A stretch of DNA of 33,352 nt, from positions 1 to 33,352 of the IMG/VR virus record IMGVR_UViG_3300027963_000196; one strand, 5' to 3'. The notes under the pieces were generated by a model. The model saw nothing but the letters and a program-made list of their open reading frames with translations, had not been told where the DNA came from and searched no databases. The stretch is from a virus. Below, in pieces: positions 2,723 through 32,134 of this stretch (position 1 is the first letter of the stretch; every line of letters starts with the position of its first letter). The position numbers were made by a program, and so were the translations under genes.

Positions 2723-3430
2723 ATGATAACAGTTGAGTTAGTAGATAAAATGGGTACTGATTTGTCAGCGGTAAATGCTGCTAGGGTTTCGTTTGATAAA
2801 AAATCTGATTGGGAATATACTATACAGAATAAATTTGATATTGAGAGTGGAACGAGTGAGACTGTTAAGACTCCTATTGGTTTAAAGCTAGGTGATGAAA
2901 AGTTAATTAAATTCTTAGCTGAACATAATCACTGGACTCCCTTTGGTCATGCTTCTTTATCATTTCATATTAAAGCGCCTATCTTCGTCGCTCGTCAGCT
3001 TGTTAAACATACCGTAGGTCTCGTTTGGAATGAAGTATCACGTCGATATGTTGATAGTACTCCAGAGTTTTATTTCCCAGACAATTGGCGTAAACGTAAT
3101 GAAGATAAGAAACAAGGTTCGCACGAAGATCAGTTTGTACCTGAAAATGCCTTTAATGAGTTTACTTGGCCAGAGTTAATTTGTAAAGATGCTTTAGATT
3201 TATATCGAGCTATGATTAAAGCAGGTGTATGTGCAGAACAAGCTCGTATGATTCTACCTCAGAATATGATGACAGAATGGTATTGGTCTGGTTCTCTTAT
3301 TGCATTTGCACGAGTATGTAGCTTAAGATGTAAGAAGGATACTCAATTTGAAACACGTATCGTTGCAGATCAAATTGATGAGATCGCTAAAGAACTCTTT
3401 CCAGTATGTTGGAAGTATTTACGTAAATAA
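2723..3430 (+). CDS. thyX: Flavin-dependent thymidylate synthase ThyX
   Basis: ThyX makes dTMP from dUMP using FAD, NADPH and methylenetetrahydrofolate. The 235-residue length fits the family. The HWTPFGHASLSFHI stretch, the central region ending WNEVSRRY and the C-terminal LPQNMMTEWYWSG/QFETR region are typical. The family signature RHRxxSxNExSxRY is altered to KHTVGLVWNEVSRRY: the first Arg is Lys, the second is replaced, and there is one extra residue before the Asn. Similar variants are known to me from other phage ThyX proteins. It has its own sigma70-like promoter and no Shine-Dalgarno. It pairs functionally with nrdAB further right to supply DNA precursors. Confidence 0.93.
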   Translation: MITVELVDKMGTDLSAVNAARVSFDKKSDWEYTIQNKFDIESGTSETVKTPIGLKLGDEKLIKFLAEHNHWTPFGHASLSFHIKAPIFVARQLVKHTVGLVWNEVSRRYVDSTPEFYFPDNWRKRNEDKKQGSHEDQFVPENAFNEFTWPELICKDALDLYRAMIKAGVCAEQARMILPQNMMTEWYWSGSLIAFARVCSLRCKKDTQFETRIVADQIDEIAKELFPVCWKYLRK

Positions 3431-11299: not shown

Positions 11300-12283
11300 A
11301 TGAGAGAACCAAGCATTTTTGAAGAACAAGTAAGTCGAAAGCCTAATAGATACCCATGGACTGAGGAGTTCATTAGAGCTATGCATGATGGTCATTGGAC
11401 TGACAAAGAGTTTACCTTTGCAGCTGATGTCCAACAATTTAAAGTTGATCTATCTGAACAAGAGCAGGAGATTATTATCAGAACTTTATCTGCTATTGGT
11501 CAGATTGAAGTAGCTGTTAAGACCTTTTGGGCTAAGCTTGGTGATAATTTACCTCATCCCTCTTTACAAGACCTTGGTTATGTAATGGCAAATATCGAAG
11601 TCATTCATAATAATGCATATGAGCGTCTCCTTAGTGTCTTAGGGTTAGAAGATATCTTCGAAAAAAATCTTAAACTAGACTTTATTCAAGGTCGAGTTAA
11701 GTATCTGCGTAAGTATACTCATAAGTTCTATAAAGACTCTAAAAAGCAATATCTATATGCATTAACTCTCTTTACTCTCTTTGTTGAGAATGCATCTCTC
11801 TTTAGTCAGTTTTATGTTATTATGTGGTTTGCACGCTTTAAGAATGTTCTTAAAGACGTTGATCAGCAAGTAAAATATACTCGTAACGAAGAAGCGTTAC
11901 ATGCATTAGCGGGTATTAGAATTATAAGTGATATTCGTAAAGAGCATCCTGAGTTATTTGATGAAGAGCTTGAACAACGTATCTCTCATGAAGCGCAAGA
12001 AGCCTTTAAAGCTGAATCGAAAATTATTGACTGGATGGTAAATGGATATAATGAAGAGAATCTTAATGCTCCTTTACTAAAAGAGTTAATTAAACAACGT
12101 CTTAATACATCTTTAGAGCAAATTGGCTTTAAACCTATCTTTGAAGTTAGAGAAGGTACTGATGAAAAGGTTCTTTGGTTTAATGAAGATCTTCTTGGTA
12201 ATGGTATGACTGATTTCTTTAGTTCACGTCCAATTGAGTACTCTAAAAATAGTCAATCCTTTAGTGAAGAAGACTTATTTTAA
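11300..12283 (+). CDS. nrdB: Class I ribonucleotide reductase small subunit NrdB
   Basis: NrdB holds the di-iron centre and tyrosyl radical used by NrdA to reduce ribonucleotides. The 327-residue protein has ligands in the expected places: Glu70 (first acidic ligand position), Glu100-x-x-His103, Glu163 in LFVENAS, and Glu198-x-x-His201 in RNEEALHA. The radical Tyr is Tyr107 (EVIHNNAY), so this looks like an active class Ia-type protein. The C-terminal tail (SQSFSEEDLF) resembles the acidic tail that docks on NrdA. nrdA starts 38 bases after the stop, behind a weaker promoter-like TACAAT at 12305. Confidence 0.95.
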   Translation: MREPSIFEEQVSRKPNRYPWTEEFIRAMHDGHWTDKEFTFAADVQQFKVDLSEQEQEIIIRTLSAIGQIEVAVKTFWAKLGDNLPHPSLQDLGYVMANIEVIHNNAYERLLSVLGLEDIFEKNLKLDFIQGRVKYLRKYTHKFYKDSKKQYLYALTLFTLFVENASLFSQFYVIMWFARFKNVLKDVDQQVKYTRNEEALHALAGIRIISDIRKEHPELFDEELEQRISHEAQEAFKAESKIIDWMVNGYNEENLNAPLLKELIKQRLNTSLEQIGFKPIFEVREGTDEKVLWFNEDLLGNGMTDFFSSRPIEYSKNSQSFSEEDLF

Positions 12284-12321: not shown

Positions 12322-13389
12322 ATGTTATCATATGAATGGCTTAATGCAGACTCTCGTAAATTTCTTGAACGTGGTTATCTAAAGGTAGGTGAGACTCCTG
12401 AAGAAAGAATCTCAGATATAGCTAATGCTGCTGAACGATATTTAAATATTGAAGGCTTCGCATTGAAGTTTATGACCTACATGGCACATGGGTTCTATTC
12501 TCTATCTTCTCCTATCTGGTCTAATTTTGGTAGAGATAGAGGCTTACCTATCTCTTGTTTTGGTAGCTATATTCCTGACGATATGGAGAAGATTCTCTAT
12601 AAAGTTAGCGAAGTAGGTACTATGTCTAAGGTAGGAGGTGGTACTTCTGCATATTTTGGTGAAGTACGTAAGCGAGGTGCTCCTATTAGTGATGGAGGTA
12701 GTGCTACGGGAGTGCATCATCAACTTACTGTATTCAACTCTCTTATTAGTTATGTCTCTCAAAGTAATGTTAGACGAGGATCCTTTGCTGCTTATCTACC
12801 TGTTGATCATGGAGATATTGAAGAGTTCTTAGAGATTAAAAGCGCTGGTAATAGTATTCAAGACGTTTCCTTTGGAGTATGTGTAACAGATGAATGGCTA
12901 GCTGATATGAAAGCTGGTGATAAGCATAAACGTAAAATATGGGGCAAAGTAATTCAAAAGCGTTTTGAGACAGGATACCCTTATGTCTTCTTTACAGATA
13001 ATGCTAATAATCAAGCTCCTCAAGTTTATAAAGATAAGGGTTTAAAAATCAACGCGAGTAATTTATGTGTCACAGGAGACACTATTATTAGTATTTTAGT
13101 TAATGAGAACGAATATCTTGAAGTGCCAATTGATAGCCTTAATTATTACTTAAAGAAATACTCTGAAGTAAAAGTTAAGTCGTATGATGTTAAAACAGAT
13201 CAAGAAGTATACTCAACTATTGAAGCTTTTGCTCAAACAGGTGAATCTTCCGAAATTATAGAAATTGAAGATGAGCAGGGTAACATCATTAAATGTACTC
13301 CAGAACATCAGATATATACAAAAAATAGAGGGTATGTGCAAGCTCAGGAATTAAAGGAGGATGATATTCTTGTAATTACTCCTGAATAA
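12322..13389 (+). CDS. nrdA: Ribonucleotide reductase large subunit, N-terminal part, fused to N-half of a split intein
   Basis: Residues 1-248 are the first half of NrdA: the LPISCFGSYIPDD region with Cys79 (first redox Cys), KVGGGTSAYFGEVRKRG, and RRGSFAAYLPVDHGDIEEFL. They stop at INASNL, just before the catalytic Cys. Residues 249-355 are an intein N-half: Cys249 begins block A (CVTGDTIISI), and block B is NIIKCTPEHQIYT, with the TxxH motif. The protein then ends at a stop codon. The C-half is in a separate gene at 14285, so active NrdA requires splicing in trans. The usual N-terminal ATP cone of NrdA is missing. Confidence 0.93.
   Translation: MLSYEWLNADSRKFLERGYLKVGETPEERISDIANAAERYLNIEGFALKFMTYMAHGFYSLSSPIWSNFGRDRGLPISCFGSYIPDDMEKILYKVSEVGTMSKVGGGTSAYFGEVRKRGAPISDGGSATGVHHQLTVFNSLISYVSQSNVRRGSFAAYLPVDHGDIEEFLEIKSAGNSIQDVSFGVCVTDEWLADMKAGDKHKRKIWGKVIQKRFETGYPYVFFTDNANNQAPQVYKDKGLKINASNLCVTGDTIISILVNENEYLEVPIDSLNYYLKKYSEVKVKSYDVKTDQEVYSTIEAFAQTGESSEIIEIEDEQGNIIKCTPEHQIYTKNRGYVQAQELKEDDILVITPE
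13066..13386 (+). other. Split intein N-half (IntN) in nrdA
   Basis: 107 codons from Cys249 of the nrdA N-part to its stop. Block A has the nucleophilic Cys1 and block B has TPEH. The insertion is between Leu and the thiyl-radical Cys of the NLC motif. Confidence 0.9.
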
Positions 13390-13407
13390 TATGTATCGTG
13401 TAGACTA

Positions 13408-13446
13408 AATATATCTGTGCAGTAATGTTTTCTGCACAGATATATT
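13408..13446 (+). promoter_or_regulatory. Perfect 15-bp hairpin directly before the HNH gene start
   Basis: AATATATCTGTGCAG (13408-13422) pairs perfectly with CTGCACAGATATATT (13432-13446) around a 9-base loop. The start codon of the HNH gene begins at 13447, the next base. There is no U-run, so it is less like a terminator than a translation- or transcript-control element; it could also be a protein-binding palindrome. Confidence 0.8.
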
Positions 13447-14262
13447 ATGAATTATAAACAAATACACGATAACTTTATTACTTATATACAGAAATCTACA
13501 CCTAGAGAAAGGTTAACTATACGCAATCCTAATGATCAGAGACTAATGAAGACTGCAATATATCAAGAAGTTCATCATATAATTCCTAGATCGTTAGGCG
13601 GTATAGATGAGCTATACAATCTCGTTGCTGTACTTCCTGAGGAGCATATTTTCTTACACATGTTAAGGTATAAAATATACAGAAAACGAGAAGATATGCT
13701 CGCAGTAAGATTTACATTGAATGGTTATAATAACGGTAATAATGTAAAAGGTAAGTTTAAGTTTATTTTAAACAAAAAAATAAGAATGGGTTACGCGTGG
13801 TTAAAATCACATTCAACATATTTAAGAAAAACAGAAGGCTGGCAGACTTCAGAAGGTAGGAATCGCATTTCAGCAGCAAGGAAAGGTACAATTGTTGTTA
13901 AGGATATTCATACTAATACTATAATAGGATCTGTACCTACAACACATCCTAATGTTCTCTCAGGTCAATGGGTACACCACACAAAGGGTCGAAAAATATC
14001 TAATGTAGAAAAACAAATGAGAAGCAAAATGGGATCAGGTAATAAAAACAATAATTACTCTGGATTAACAGATGATTATTTTATTAAAAGGGGTATAGAA
14101 TTATATATTGAGTTTGGATATATACCAACATGGCCAAGTATAATTAAACTTGCAGAACTTAGAAATTTTAGGTGGTTAAAGGGTCTCGCTAAGTGTAGAT
14201 TCAATGGCTTAGGTAAGCGAGGGTTTTATGCAGCCGTTGAAGAACAACTACCAAATAAATAA
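13447..14262 (+). CDS. HNH homing endonuclease between the two intein halves
   Basis: A 271-residue endonuclease. The HNH core is QEVHHIIPRSLGGIDELYNL (residues 40-59) with His43/His44, Asn58 and a following His67. A NUMOD-like DNA-binding stretch follows: KGTIVVKDIHTNTIIG, then LSGQWVHHTKGR (about 146-182). The C-terminal region (DYFIKRGIELYIEFGYIPTW) may also bind DNA. It probably cuts intein-free nrdA and so spreads the insertion. It is a free-standing gene in the same reading frame as the nrdA N-part, separated by two in-frame stops and a hairpin. No Shine-Dalgarno is seen. Confidence 0.88.
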   Translation: MNYKQIHDNFITYIQKSTPRERLTIRNPNDQRLMKTAIYQEVHHIIPRSLGGIDELYNLVAVLPEEHIFLHMLRYKIYRKREDMLAVRFTLNGYNNGNNVKGKFKFILNKKIRMGYAWLKSHSTYLRKTEGWQTSEGRNRISAARKGTIVVKDIHTNTIIGSVPTTHPNVLSGQWVHHTKGRKISNVEKQMRSKMGSGNKNNNYSGLTDDYFIKRGIELYIEFGYIPTWPSIIKLAELRNFRWLKGLAKCRFNGLGKRGFYAAVEEQLPNK

Positions 14263-14284
14263 TACTAAACAGATAAAAAATTAT

Positions 14285-14383
14285 ATGATAAAAATAAAGA
14301 GATATAAAAAAGTAGAGCCGGTTTATGATATTACTGTATCTAAAGTAGCAAATTTTTTCGCTAATAAAATTCTAGTTCATAAC
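14285..14383 (+). other. Split intein C-half (IntC)
   Basis: 33 codons ending in His-Asn directly before the Cys codon TGT at 14384-14386. The block F and G spacing and length match natural split intein C-halves. Confidence 0.9.
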
Positions 14384-15286
14384 TGTAGTGAAATCTTCCT
14401 AAGTAACTCTGCTGATGAATCCTTTGTATGTGATTTATCTTCTATTAATCTTGAGAAATGGGATGAGATTAAAGAAACTGACGCGGTTCAAACTCTTATC
14501 TACTTCCTCGATGCAGTAATGACTGAGTTTATTAATAAGACTAAAGATGTCTTGTTCATGGAAGCTCCTCATAAATTTGCAGTCAATCAACGAGCATTAG
14601 GTTTAGGAGTTCTTGGCTGGCATTCGTATTTACAGAGTAAAGATATTGAGTTTGAATCTATGGCTGCTAAACTTGAGAACGTTCAGATCTTCTCTACTAT
14701 TAGATCTGAATGTGATAGAGCTACTGAGAGCTTAGCGTCTCTCTTTGGAGAACCCGCTCTGCTAAAGGGCTATGGTAGACGTAATACAACTACAATGGCC
14801 GTAGCTCCAACGACGTCTAGTTCATTTATTTTAGGTCAAGTTTCACCTTCTATTGAACCTCTAAATAGTAATTACTTTGTAAAAGACTTAGCTAAAGGTA
14901 AGTTTACTTTCCGCTCTCCACACTTAGCTAAATTACTCAAATCAAAAGATAAAGATACTACTGATGTATGGATGAGTATTCTATCTAGAGGTGGTAGTGT
15001 GCAGCATCTTGAGTTCTTAACTCAGCATGAAAAAAACGTCTTTAAGACCTTTAGTGAGATAACTCAAAAAGAGATTATCATTCAAGCTGCTCAGAGACAG
15101 AAATATATCGATCAAGGACAATCGTTGAACTTAATGATTCCTCCTTCTACAAAAGCTAAAGATGTAAATGAGCTTATGTTATTTGCTCACGAGATGGGTA
15201 TTAAGTCTCTTTACTATCAGCGGTCTGCTAATCCTGCTCAAGAGTTAGCTCGATCTATTCTGAATTGTTCTTCATGTGAATCATAG
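14285..15286 (+). CDS. nrdA: Split intein C-half fused to C-terminal part of ribonucleotide reductase large subunit
   Basis: Residues 1-33 from the ATG at 14285 are the intein C-half: block F is VYDITVSKVANFFAN and block G is KILVHN, with the terminal Asn. The next residue is Cys34, both the +1 splicing nucleophile and the catalytic thiyl-radical Cys of NrdA (CSEI, with its partner Glu). The NrdA remainder (300 residues) has the second redox Cys in SFVCDLSSINL, the radical-transfer pair in LYYQRS, and the C-terminal CSSC thiol pair. Spliced NrdA would be about 548 residues. An in-frame ATG at 14228 overlaps the HNH gene and would add 19 unlikely residues. Confidence 0.92.
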   Translation: MIKIKRYKKVEPVYDITVSKVANFFANKILVHNCSEIFLSNSADESFVCDLSSINLEKWDEIKETDAVQTLIYFLDAVMTEFINKTKDVLFMEAPHKFAVNQRALGLGVLGWHSYLQSKDIEFESMAAKLENVQIFSTIRSECDRATESLASLFGEPALLKGYGRRNTTTMAVAPTTSSSFILGQVSPSIEPLNSNYFVKDLAKGKFTFRSPHLAKLLKSKDKDTTDVWMSILSRGGSVQHLEFLTQHEKNVFKTFSEITQKEIIIQAAQRQKYIDQGQSLNLMIPPSTKAKDVNELMLFAHEMGIKSLYYQRSANPAQELARSILNCSSCES

Positions 15287-20434: not shown

Positions 20435-21373
20435 ATGACATCAAAATTGGATAACTCTAATATCTCACGGCATCTTGGTCAGACTTCATCTTATAAGTCT
20501 ATCTACGATTCCTCTTTAATCGTACGTGAACCGAGACAGGCTAATCGTACTCATCTGAATATTCAAGACGATGATCTACCCTTTACTGGTACTGATACTT
20601 GGAATGCTTATGAAGTATCTGGTCTAACTAATAGTGGTGTACCGGTAGCTGGTATTGCTAAAATCGTTTACTCTTGTACGAATAAATATATCGTTGAGTC
20701 TAAATCTCTTAAGCTATATTTTAACTCTTTTAATATGACTAAGTTAGGTGAGTCTAGTGATGAAGTTAGAAAGACTATTCAAGAAATAGCTACACGAGAT
20801 TTATCTAGATTGCTTGAAACTGATGTTAAGGTAAAGGTATTTTCGAATAGAGAAGTTCTTGATGATACTACTACTGCTCATCAAGAGTGGTTTGCTTTTA
20901 ATAATACAAGTCCGGTTATTGAAGAGTTTATTACCTTAGAAGATGATTATCCTTTTGATGAACTTGAAATTAGTAAATATTCAGAATCTCCTGAACTCTT
21001 AGAAGTTATTGATTCAGAGAAAGAGATTACTTTATATCATAGTTCTTTGTTGAAGTCAAACTGCCGTGTTACTAGTCAACCTGACTTCGGTGATGTCTTT
21101 ATTCATATTAAAGGCTCAAAGACTATTGAACCTGCTTCTATGTTGAAGTATATTATCTCTTTTAGAGATGAATGTCACTTTCATGAAGAGATTTGTGAGA
21201 CTATCTATACAAGACTTTGGAATCTACTTAAGCCTGCAGAGTTAGTAGTAAGGTGTTTATATACTCGCCGCGGGGGTATTGATATTTGTCCTGAACGTGC
21301 ATCTGAACCTAAGCTTCAGCATTTTTCGTTAAATGATACTACAGTAGCTTATATTAAGACACCTCGTCAGTAG
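20435..21373 (+). CDS. queF: QueF, NADPH-dependent 7-cyano-7-deazaguanine reductase
   Basis: QueF reduces preQ0 (nitrile) to preQ1 (aminomethyl). The 312-residue protein is of the two-domain (E. coli) type. The first half has WNAYEVSGL and the QueF motif ESKSLKLYFNSFN (residues 88-100). The second half has LLKSNCRVTSQPDFGDV, with Cys210 as the nitrile-attacking residue, then FRDECHFHEE (His250, Glu251) for substrate binding, and YTRRGGIDICPERAS. All key residues are present. It closes the operon; a strong terminator follows. The upstream steps (FolE, QueD, QueE, QueC) are not in the window. Confidence 0.95.
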   Translation: MTSKLDNSNISRHLGQTSSYKSIYDSSLIVREPRQANRTHLNIQDDDLPFTGTDTWNAYEVSGLTNSGVPVAGIAKIVYSCTNKYIVESKSLKLYFNSFNMTKLGESSDEVRKTIQEIATRDLSRLLETDVKVKVFSNREVLDDTTTAHQEWFAFNNTSPVIEEFITLEDDYPFDELEISKYSESPELLEVIDSEKEITLYHSSLLKSNCRVTSQPDFGDVFIHIKGSKTIEPASMLKYIISFRDECHFHEEICETIYTRLWNLLKPAELVVRCLYTRRGGIDICPERASEPKLQHFSLNDTTVAYIKTPRQ

Positions 21374-29188: not shown

Positions 29189-30859
29189 ATGGCTAGACTT
29201 ACCCAAGAAGAATTTGTTGCAAGATGTATTGTAAAGCATAATAATCAATATAACTATTCAAAAACTCTATACACTACAACAAGAGATAAAATAATAGTGA
29301 CATGTGTACATCATGGAGATTTTTATGTGTTAGCAGATAACCATTTAAGACAAAGCGGCTGCCCTAAATGTGGTACACAGCTAGGTGCTAAATCTACAAC
29401 CCCCACCTACACAGAATTCATTGATAAAGTTTCCGATACTAATCGCGTAAATTTACAATTCTGTGAAGCTGATTATATAAATTCACGTATACCTATAACG
29501 GTGTTATGTAAGAAACATAACTACGAATTTAAGCAAAAGCCGTACGATATATATACAAACCGAACTAAATGTAAACATTGTTTGTTTGAAAAACTCTCTA
29601 ACAAAAGCCGAAGTAATAATCAAGATTTTATTATGAAAGCTCAAGAGATCTATAATGATAGATATTTATATGATAATATATTATATAATTGTAATACTGA
29701 ACCCGTTAAAATTACTTGTAAACAACACGGTATATATAGTATTACGCCAAAAGAATTTTTACGTGGATATCATTGTAAAAAATGTATGAAGCAAGATTTA
29801 TTAAAAAATAATAGTAATATGTTTTTTAATGCGTTTAAAGATAAATGGCCTAATTATACTATTAAGTCTGAGTATAATGGATGTTATGCTCCGTTACTTA
29901 TAAATTGTAACTTACATGGTGATTTTTACGCATCACCTGAACAATCTCGAATCTCACAAGATATATGTGATAGCTGTCGCGTTTATAGAGGCTCACAACA
30001 AGAGTTAAAAATTACTAATTTATTAGATAAATATAATATAGAATACCAGAAACATAAAAAAATTAAAAGTGATAAGGGTATGTTTGAGATAGATATTTTC
30101 TTACCTAAACAAAATATCGCAATAGAAGTAAATGGGTTATATTGGCATCGTGATCGAGATAATGGTAAATATTCAAAAGATTATCATTTAAATAAAACAG
30201 CTACTTGCTTCGAGCAAGGTATTACACTCTTACATTTTTATGATACTGAAATTGATACAAAGTTTTCGATTATTAAGTCAATCTTAGAAAATAAATTAAA
30301 TCTTAATACACGTAAGGTACATGGTAGAAAAACGATTATTAAATATGTATCTAATGTAGAAAAGAAAATGTTCTTAGACACATATCATATGCAAGGTAAT
30401 GATAGAGCTTCGATATGTATTGGATTATATTATAATGATGAGTTGTTATCTATTATGACATTTGGTACTCGAAAAATTACCGGTTCAGTAGATCATGAAC
30501 TTTTAAGATACTGTGTAAAATCAGGAGTAAATGTTGTCGGGGGATTCTCTAAACTTATTAAATTCTATAGCAAACAACACAATATTTCTACTATTAAGAC
30601 ATATGCAGATAAACGGTATAGTCGAGGAAATGTATATAATATAAATGGGTTTAAGCATTTACGTGATTCTGCTCCCTCATATTGGTATTTTAATACTAAA
30701 GCATATAAGTTACACCACCGCTATAATTTTGCAAAACATTTACTAAAAAACAAATTAGAAAACTATGATGAAAATAAAACAGAGTATGAAAATATGCGAG
30801 ACAACAATTACTTTAGAGTTTGGGATTGTGGGCACTGTGTATTTGAGTACACCGTCTAG
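29189..30859 (+). CDS. EDxHD (Vsr-like) homing endonuclease with zinc-ribbon-like repeats
   Basis: A 556-residue protein. The first 265 residues hold four repeats of a DUF723-like unit with C-x-HG or C-x-H-x and CxxC pairs (for example VTCVHHGDFYV then CPKCG). The nuclease follows at about 270-370: MFEIDIFLPKQNIAIEVNGL then YWHRD, the E-D-x-H-D motif of Vsr-like homing endonucleases. The C-terminal third (MTFGTRKITGSVDHELLRYC, then TYADKRYSRGNVYNINGFKH) is found in other phage and virus endonucleases. It lies between the gp4-like and gp21 genes, on the opposite strand, as a free-standing mobile gene. Confidence 0.85.
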   Translation: MARLTQEEFVARCIVKHNNQYNYSKTLYTTTRDKIIVTCVHHGDFYVLADNHLRQSGCPKCGTQLGAKSTTPTYTEFIDKVSDTNRVNLQFCEADYINSRIPITVLCKKHNYEFKQKPYDIYTNRTKCKHCLFEKLSNKSRSNNQDFIMKAQEIYNDRYLYDNILYNCNTEPVKITCKQHGIYSITPKEFLRGYHCKKCMKQDLLKNNSNMFFNAFKDKWPNYTIKSEYNGCYAPLLINCNLHGDFYASPEQSRISQDICDSCRVYRGSQQELKITNLLDKYNIEYQKHKKIKSDKGMFEIDIFLPKQNIAIEVNGLYWHRDRDNGKYSKDYHLNKTATCFEQGITLLHFYDTEIDTKFSIIKSILENKLNLNTRKVHGRKTIIKYVSNVEKKMFLDTYHMQGNDRASICIGLYYNDELLSIMTFGTRKITGSVDHELLRYCVKSGVNVVGGFSKLIKFYSKQHNISTIKTYADKRYSRGNVYNINGFKHLRDSAPSYWYFNTKAYKLHHRYNFAKHLLKNKLENYDENKTEYENMRDNNYFRVWDCGHCVFEYTV

Positions 30860-30864
30860 TTTAT

Positions 30865-31314
30865 TTAATTTTTTAACTCTTTCTCTGTTAATATAAGAAA
30901 ATTAAGTTTATTTTTTTTACAATATTCATTAGCACTCTCCCACTTTGCTTGATTTACTATATATTGAGCTTGATCATATACTAAGTGTTGTTTTTTTCTG
31001 TACTTAGTAGCAGGGGGTAATGTCTGTTTAAAAGGTTTTATTTCTATAAGATATTTCTTTATCACCGTACCTTCGCGTATCGCAACATAATTATCAACAT
31101 AATATCGATGCATTTTACCGTCCACAGGGCTTATATAAGGTATTATAACGTTTTCACTTCCCCATTGAATTATATTAGGATTAAAGTCACAAAATCTAAA
31201 GAACTTTAATTCTAGACCAGAACGATATATAGCTTTTGATCCTATTAATTTATTAGGATATTTTGGCTTGTAAATGCCTTGCTTGTACTTTGGATTATTA
31301 GGGGAGTTGTTCAT
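30865..31314 (-). CDS. gp4: Head completion protein, gp4-like (TnsA/endonuclease-fold)
   Basis: Completes the packaged head before tail joining. The 149-residue protein is very close in pattern to T4 gp4 (also called gp50/65): QGIYKPKYPNKLIG, YRSGLELKFFRFCDFNPNII, WGSENVIIPYISPVDGKMHR, YYVDNYV, and LIEIKP. Asp74 and the Glu91-Ile-Lys93 motif form a nuclease-like site as in the TnsA fold. I chose the ATG at 31314 because a TTTAAATA box ends exactly 5 bases before it. The longer frame begins at 31344 and would overlap the upstream gene by 47 bases. Confidence 0.9.
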   Translation of the reverse strand: MNNSPNNPKYKQGIYKPKYPNKLIGSKAIYRSGLELKFFRFCDFNPNIIQWGSENVIIPYISPVDGKMHRYYVDNYVAIREGTVIKKYLIEIKPFKQTLPPATKYRKKQHLVYDQAQYIVNQAKWESANEYCKKNKLNFLILTEKELKN

Positions 31315-32134
31315 TACAGTATTTAAAATAAATTGTCTCACCATGCTGATACGGATGTAGCGTATTAGATTGTCTTTTTATAATCCACTTACCGTTTCGC
31401 TTTAATTTAGTTAATAGTGGACCACGAAAATGCTGAGTTTGAATAAACTCTCTCTCATTTTTATATGTATGTATACCTAAATGAGATGTTATAATAAATG
31501 GTTTATTTCTCGGATCTATATATTCTGCTCCTTTTAGTTCATTCATTGTACGTCCTTTATTCCAAGGTCCGTTATATTTAGCTCCACATATTTCTTTTGC
31601 TGTTTTACCTTTAAGAGGATTAATATAATCCGGATCACCTAATCGCTCCTGCATTGTTTTGTTAAGTTGTCTCTCGCTTGTGAGCTTATGTGCTGTCAAT
31701 TCTTTATCGGTAAAGCCATATGTTGCTATTCGATGTTTATTATTTATACCTCGCTGTAATTCCTTTTCTGTATAGTTACCAGCCGCTAATCTAGTATTAA
31801 GTGTAAGCTTTGCCTTTTCTCTCACTTCTGGTGATCTCATAGATTCATGCCCACCAGAACCATCTTCAGGTACTAAATTTGCAAACTCTTTTGAGAGAAC
31901 AACATTATATAATAATGAATATTCAAGACCTTTTTGTTTAAAATATTCTTTACTATCTGTTTCGTATAAAATAGTTGTATGTATATCATAACCATGTTTA
32001 CGTAAATGTGCTCTCCATCTTGTACCGCTACCTGGATATAACATACAGGATGCTTTAGTTCCATAATGTTTACATAAATATTTTAATCCTGTAATATTAT
32101 GTTCTTTTAATAATAAAAATAATCTCTTATTCAT
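31298..32134 (-). CDS. GIY-YIG-like endonuclease (putative homing endonuclease)
   Basis: A 278-residue protein. The N-terminal part follows the pattern of a divergent GIY-YIG nuclease group in phages and giant viruses: LKYLCKHYGTKAS (18-30), GSGTRWRAHLRKHGYD (35-50), TTILYETDSKEYFKQKGLEY (53-72), then SKEFANLVPEDGSGG (81-95) with a likely metal-binding Glu90. The middle contains repeated NUMOD-like elements (TEKELQRGINNKHRIATYGF, and the NKGRTMNEL type). It lies between the gp4-like gene and a structural gene, overlapping the former by 17 bases. It has a perfect late box 5 bases upstream. Confidence 0.75.
   Translation of the reverse strand: MNKRLFLLLKEHNITGLKYLCKHYGTKASCMLYPGSGTRWRAHLRKHGYDIHTTILYETDSKEYFKQKGLEYSLLYNVVLSKEFANLVPEDGSGGHESMRSPEVREKAKLTLNTRLAAGNYTEKELQRGINNKHRIATYGFTDKELTAHKLTSERQLNKTMQERLGDPDYINPLKGKTAKEICGAKYNGPWNKGRTMNELKGAEYIDPRNKPFIITSHLGIHTYKNEREFIQTQHFRGPLLTKLKRNGKWIIKRQSNTLHPYQHGETIYFKYCNEQLP
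31320..31327 (-). promoter_or_regulatory. Late-type promoter box of the gp4-like gene
   Basis: Minus-strand TTTAAATA inside the end of the upstream gene, ending exactly 5 bases before the ATG at 31314. Confidence 0.5.

Follow-up and report, generated by a model that had tools for sequence, protein, structure and literature searches.

A split intein and an HNH endonuclease gene at the catalytic-cysteine codon of a T4-like phage nrdA: a putative mobile cassette and its probable decay

How could a phage obtain working ribonucleotide reductase (RNR) from an nrdA gene that is read as two separate open reading frames (ORFs) with an endonuclease gene between them? The question is raised by a 33,352-base stretch of viral DNA, the entire IMG/VR record IMGVR_UViG_3300027963_000196 (hereafter the window; positions are those of that record), whose virus is of the T4-like type, judged by its major head protein and prohead protease. 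On the + strand, a first ORF (12322–13389, 355 amino acids) joins 248 residues of NrdA (NrdA-N, 12322–13065), which end in KINASNL, match PF02867 and phrog_12229 and are collinear with the uninterrupted NrdA of a related locus, L003, to a 107-residue N-terminal intein half (IntN, 13066–13389) that carries block A (CVTGDT) and block B (CTPEH) before its stop codon. A free-standing HNH endonuclease gene follows (13447–14262, +, 271 amino acids; matches to phrog_655 and PF01844). The third ORF on this strand spans 14228–15286, and its ATG at 14285, 22 nt past the HNH stop codon, suits the start of a 33-residue C-terminal intein half (IntC, 14285–14383, +; VYDITV, C-terminal ILVHN), which runs into the remaining 300 residues of NrdA (NrdA-C, 14384–15286, +; PF02867), starting at the catalytic cysteine (CSEI) and ending in CSSCES. 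IntN, the HNH gene and IntC thus form a cassette of 1318 bp (13066–14383) at the site SNL^CSEI, that is, at the codon of the catalytic cysteine, which we take to be the thiyl-radical cysteine of class I RNR, C439 of Escherichia coli NrdA.

Several features suggest that the two NrdA parts could be joined by protein splicing in trans. IntN and IntC cover complementary parts of the Pfam model Intein_splicing (positions 10–94 of 155, E 3e-8, and 124–155 of 155, E 1e-7, each slightly under the Pfam cut-off), and they match the NCBIfam models intein_Nterm (TIGR01445) and intein_Cterm (TIGR01443) above their cut-offs. All class 1 splice residues are present in the window, namely Cys1, the TxxH of block B, the block F Asp, the penultimate His, the terminal Asn and the +1 Cys, and the expected spliced protein of 248 + 300 = 548 residues is exactly as long as the L003 NrdA. 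The barrel domain PF02867 is shared out over NrdA-N, which holds the PISCFG cysteine, and NrdA-C, which holds the catalytic cysteine, the VCDLSS cysteine, the YY pair and the C-terminal CxxC; judged from these motifs, neither half alone could form a complete active site. A group I intron was also considered and dropped, because an Rfam covariance search of 12900–14600 gave no match at E ≤ 1.

The arrangement itself is already known, from the 'fractured genes' of 2009 and from the polB gene of Pseudomonas jumbo phage MIJ3, where a split intein is accompanied by an HNH gene. The fractured-gene nuclease of Dassa et al. (2009) is said to belong to a new Vsr-like family. As later papers describe them, fractured genes are enzyme genes, nrdA included, of metagenomic phage-like DNA, with a split intein and an endonuclease gene between the halves (via PMC3653736, PMC10448857), and the window has the same arrangement: a conserved enzyme gene, exteins collinear with an intact homologue, halves on separate ORFs and an endonuclease between them. 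The window nuclease is HNH, not Vsr-like, and other loci at the site carry GIY-YIG and other types; because the MIJ3 polB arrangement was published with an HNH gene (PMC6892783), the Vsr-like nuclease is probably not a defining feature. As quoted there, the MIJ3 intein differs from that of the window in its host gene, in block A (SVDGST) and in a block G ending in HNS. The nearest solved relative of IntN by sequence is the NrdJ-1 split intein (PDB 8ubs, 9omb; E 1e-12 to 8ubs), a marine-metagenome intein with ultrafast trans-splicing (PMC13123727) whose +1 residue is Ser, in contrast to Cys in the window. In Aeromonas phage Aeh1, nrdA also lies in two genes with an HNH-family gene, mobE, between them, but there is no intein and the pieces work unspliced (PMC2988022, PMC3653736). 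A sequence-only reading of the window had proposed an nrdA divided into two genes by a split intein around an HNH gene, a 33-residue intein half opening the third gene, trans-splicing to a product of about 548 residues, a likeness to fractured genes and a contrast with Aeh1; the ORFs, profile matches and literature bear out the arrangement and both comparisons, and the intact splice residues and the equally long L003 protein support trans-splicing as the route to NrdA.

Is there a closely related gene lacking the cassette? Locus L003 (IMGVR_UViG_3300009164_000117) encodes an unbroken NrdA of 548 residues (248 + 300), joined at the very codon of the window junction; its two parts are 95.6% (NrdA-N) and 98.3% (NrdA-C) identical to the window exteins, and the DNA flanking the insertion is about 92% identical on the left and about 90% on the right. 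A megablast search with the central 21 kb of the window against phage records gave no match. The cultured Yersinia phage vB_YenM_TG1 (KP202158) has the same cassette layout at the same catalytic-cysteine site (NrdA-N with IntN, a hairpin with TATAAATA, an HNH gene, and IntC with NrdA-C), in an NrdA of T4 type and with an HNH protein 40% and an intein 37% identical to those of the window; its annotation gives two RNR genes and a homing endonuclease, nothing more. Its sister phage phiR1-RT carries a single intact nrdA. The two nrdA genes are 96–98% identical in DNA except for about 28 nt to the left and about 56 nt to the right of the insert, where TG1 differs sharply, a pattern expected if co-conversion had brought in flanks from a more distant donor; the alternative is local divergence of other cause.

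Further loci were gathered with an HNH alignment scan and then with IntN and IntC alignment scans, and these searches were seeded with split members; the locus numbers are lower bounds and not frequencies. At least 114 distinct RNR loci carry the same intein: at least 86 are split with an endonuclease (at least 34 HNH, at least 42 GIY-YIG, at least 8 of other types and at least 2 unclassified), at least 20 are split without a full nuclease and at least 8 are contiguous. An automatic test found all splice residues (C1, TxxH, block F D, HN and +1 C) in 111 of the 114 loci listed. Four loci (L004, L006, L007 and L020) are laid out as in the window, and L005 holds the C-part alone. The nuclease gene overlaps the start of IntC in 58 of the 83 loci listed, often by 4 nt.

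Some of the collected loci are more elaborate. In Klebsiella phage KP13-7 (L089, 2029–7559), nrdA apparently lies in four coding pieces: the first gap, at KSCSQG, holds an HNH-like ORF and is perhaps a group I intron, but without an Rfam match; at the second, SNLC^C, a split intein encloses a GIY-YIG gene; and at the third, before TSSQ, stands a further split intein, which has an HNH-like gene of its own. In L196, L205 and L233, nrdA has near position 3120 an additional intein-like N-part at KSC^C, the place of the first KP13-7 interruption, where an intron and an intein may share a site. In Campylobacter phages CPt10 and IBB_35 (L090, L091), where nrdA is annotated as a pseudogene or 'intein', a split intein at TNLC^C is the better reading; its halves enclose two ORFs of unknown family, and each phage has an additional, contiguous intein downstream. 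Inteins of the same family, split or contiguous, also occur at a TNP^CGE site resembling class II ribonucleotide reductases (L307, L322, L329, L299). In Streptococcus phage vB_SagM-GXN1 (L093, 1666–4639), the terminase large subunit contains a split intein whose N-part reads into a probable nuclease; this locus is mostly unannotated.

The cassette parts seem to have travelled independently of the host gene. The HNH scan brought in loci with quite different NrdA types, and those nearest to the window by HNH protein all lie inside the same split intein. Compared with L095, the window is 27% identical in NrdA, 56% in HNH and 54% in the intein; compared with L004, L006, L007 and L020, it is 68–69% identical in NrdA, 32–38% in HNH and 40–44% in the intein. 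HNH and intein are thus far closer to those of L095 than NrdA is, and both have moved horizontally.

The HNH protein itself has the marks of a homing enzyme. It matches the phrog_655 homing endonucleases with E 8e-21 and PF01844 with E 6e-4, a little short of the family threshold, and in 22 relatives H43 and H67 of the HNH motif are invariant and H44 and N58 are conserved in at least 90%. A PDB fold search with its model yielded nothing significant (best E 0.28; predicted template modelling score, pTM, 0.40). After the nuclease domain comes a module of about 41 residues (13870–13992, +; RKGT.V.KD..T...GSV...HPNVLSGQWVHHTKG), present in 34 of the 34 HNH loci listed at the nrdA site; in the HNH scan, whose pattern itself contained part of the module, 30 of 30 module-bearing loci adjoin the same intein. 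The GIY-YIG nucleases at the same site lack it, bar one truncated contig (L124) in which a GIY-YIG-like start is joined to the module. We propose this module as a candidate for the part of the enzyme that recognizes the nrdA site.

When might such a nuclease be made? An RNA hairpin with a 15-bp stem (13408–13446, +; −21.3 kcal/mol) ends right at the HNH start codon; its z score against dinucleotide shuffles is −4.1, and none of 200 shuffles is as stable. At its foot stands a tentative late-promoter-like sequence, GACTAAATATA (13403–13413, +; −44 to −34 from the HNH start). Among the loci listed, NATAAATA occurs within 80 nt 5′ of the nuclease gene in 50 of 85, against 7.4 expected from dinucleotide shuffles, and before IntC in 4 of 85; hairpins with z ≤ −3 (mononucleotide shuffles) precede the nuclease in 43 of 85. 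In T4 homing genes such as I-TevI, early transcripts have their ribosome site masked by a hairpin, which transcripts from a late promoter escape (PMC2988022). The window resembles that system in the hairpin at the nuclease start, and its relatives in the late promoter in or beside the hairpin; I-TevI is, however, an intron-encoded GIY-YIG enzyme, and the window gene is free-standing inside a split intein, its control being suggested by sequence.

These observations are best accounted for, with a probability that we put at about 0.86, by a mobile split-intein and HNH cassette in nrdA, in which trans-splicing restores NrdA, the HNH enzyme drives homing, the hairpin delays that enzyme, and loss of the HNH gene leads to persistence or fusion of the intein. 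The 1318-bp cassette would have been inserted at the catalytic-cysteine codon of a T4-like phage nrdA, and NrdA would be translated as two polypeptides; once their intein halves had paired, trans-splicing would yield a scarless protein of 548 residues with the catalytic cysteine as the +1 splice residue. As NrdA-N and NrdA-C each hold part of the active site, the unspliced halves are expected to be inactive. The HNH enzyme, as the mobility part, would cleave the insertion site in the uninterrupted nrdA of another phage infecting the same cell, and repair of the break would copy the whole cassette into the cut gene. Since the HNH start adjoins the hairpin foot, early nrd transcripts are probably barred from HNH translation and late ones open to it, as for T4 I-TevI. 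Once the HNH gene had decayed by internal deletion, the intein could stay split or become, by fusion, a contiguous mini-intein. The architecture, the intact residues, the exact empty-site twin, the horizontal spread, the hairpin and the nuclease remnants described below all favour this account; splicing, cleavage, homing and late timing are what we infer from them for the window.

Four observations fit this mobile-cassette account less well. The late-promoter-like sequence of the window (GACTAAATATA) is degenerate compared with TATAAATA. The frequent overlap of the nuclease gene with the IntC start suggests translational coupling, which is hard to reconcile with hairpin repression of the nuclease, as such repression might hit NrdA-C too. 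In the flank comparison of the window with L003, no co-conversion tract is visible. Finally, nuclease, intein and NrdA distances correlate overall (Mantel rho 0.23–0.48), and therefore vertical descent and transfer both contribute.

Could the divided gene be explained otherwise? That it is a decaying pseudogene, or an artefact of assembly or sequencing, might be argued from the metagenomic origin of the contig and the pseudogene annotation of a similar Campylobacter phage locus, but the window exteins are intact and nearly identical to uninterrupted L003, and the same architecture recurs in many independent contigs, in cultured TG1 and in the Campylobacter phages; assembly error was rejected on the grounds of this common layout, and we consider the whole idea extremely improbable. 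Aeh1, whose nrdA functions in two pieces without an intein, and HNH genes of the same broad type near nrd genes in T4-like phages lend some colour to the view that the HNH gene merely split nrdA, the NrdA parts associating non-covalently while the intein halves decay. Under decay, however, one would not expect every splice residue to be kept in nearly all loci listed, and NrdA-N would bear a 107-residue tail beside the active site, which makes this explanation very unlikely. A resident split intein into whose gap an unrelated free-standing homing gene has landed, so that the HNH enzyme is not the mobility factor of the cassette, is a further reading: different nuclease families, HNH, GIY-YIG and others, occupy the same gap, with an exchange within one well-supported clade (L200, GIY-YIG, with L266, HNH). 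Against it stand the 41-residue module, found in every listed HNH locus at the site and not seen away from the same intein, the shared horizontal pattern of intein and HNH, and the TG1 flank footprint, which surrounds the whole cassette; on balance this, too, is unlikely.

The sequence-only reading had further suggested that an intein once contiguous, with the HNH domain inside it, may here be caught breaking into a split one, pointing out that the HNH gene is in the frame of NrdA-N with two stops between. The frame and the stops (13387–13389 and 13423–13425) are as it described, but the frame is uninformative: across 85 loci listed, the middle gene falls into the three frames relative to IntN 25, 28 and 32 times, and because this spread is even, the shared frame in the window is a one-in-three coincidence. 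A contiguous intein, L176, is indeed the nearest sister of the window in the intein tree, with a support of 80 in the Shimodaira–Hasegawa-like approximate likelihood ratio test (SH-aLRT). Yet L174, L175 and L178, the loci nearest to the window, and deeper relatives are split with HNH, and among the loci listed no contiguous intein with an HNH domain inside was found. The split form with nuclease is widespread and old, copies without a nuclease lie within split clades, the contiguous copies sit singly among split ones, and two of them bear scars of a deleted HNH gene; breakage in the window phage is thus highly improbable, and that suggestion was abandoned.

These scars bear on the direction of change. 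In the split loci L183 and L198, the gap between the halves contains the last 30–31 codons of an HNH gene, 77–81% identical to those of L105 and L110 (E 1e-12 and 2e-13), and the gap of L227 holds a weaker HNH remnant (E 7e-6); in some other short-gap split loci, where no remnant is recognisable, nuclease loss is read from gap size. Among contiguous inteins, a DNA alignment of L330 with L122 shows that the intein sequence starts again within what was once the HNH 3′ end, with the old IntC start codon kept, and the L176 linker NGNASGLSERF resembles the HNH C-terminal region as well as only 1 of 5000 shuffles does. L176 is predicted with confidence to adopt an intein fold (predicted local distance difference test, pLDDT, 90; pTM 0.84), its best match being NrdJ-1 (8ubs, template modelling score 0.84), and the only very-low-confidence segment of the model falls in the HNH-derived linker. 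On the intein tree, which has few columns and many weak forks, so that change counts give no direction by themselves, the 8 contiguous rows need 8 changes; several of these copies lie within supported split clades (L330 with L122, SH-aLRT 98; the L321 clade, 97; L176 with the window, as above), and L258, L329 and L299 form long branches. It is because of the nuclease remnants that we infer an order from split with HNH, through loss of HNH, to fusion. More broadly, we lean slightly towards the split intein with its nuclease at nrdA as the mobile, ancestral form of this phage intein lineage, from which contiguous mini-inteins at the RNR catalytic cysteine would have been repeatedly derived by nuclease deletion and fusion, nuclease families being exchanged in the gap under T4-style late control.

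Elsewhere in the window, nrdB, encoding the ribonucleotide reductase small chain, lies directly 5′ of nrdA (11300–12283, +; PF00268, E 5e-47). A large homing-endonuclease-like gene (29189–30859, +; phrog_559, E 4e-122) is on the strand opposite to the neighbouring head genes, and among the latter a 159-residue ORF (30865–31344, −) matches a TnsA-like endonuclease N-terminal domain (E 1e-17) and is possibly another homing gene. A QueF homologue (7-cyano-7-deazaguanine reductase; 20435–21373, +) suggests a deazaguanine pathway in the phage.

What seems to be new here, with priority relative to the 2009 study uncertain, is a complete natural series at one codon, together with nuclease remnants in fused inteins, a site-linked module, late-promoter hairpins and the cultured TG1/phiR1-RT pair. 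Split inteins are major tools of protein engineering, while the origin, spread and loss of the natural ones are poorly known, and among the collected loci are roughly a hundred natural split inteins, all relatives of the ultrafast NrdJ-1. As TG1 and phiR1-RT are cultured sisters that differ at nrdA by insertion of the cassette, homing of a split intein is testable in a simple cross. Every stage is seen in sequence at a single codon, namely empty, split with nuclease, split without nuclease and fused, and the remnants give the direction; if the ancestral position of the split form is true, it turns round the usual view, in which split inteins come from the breakage of contiguous ones.

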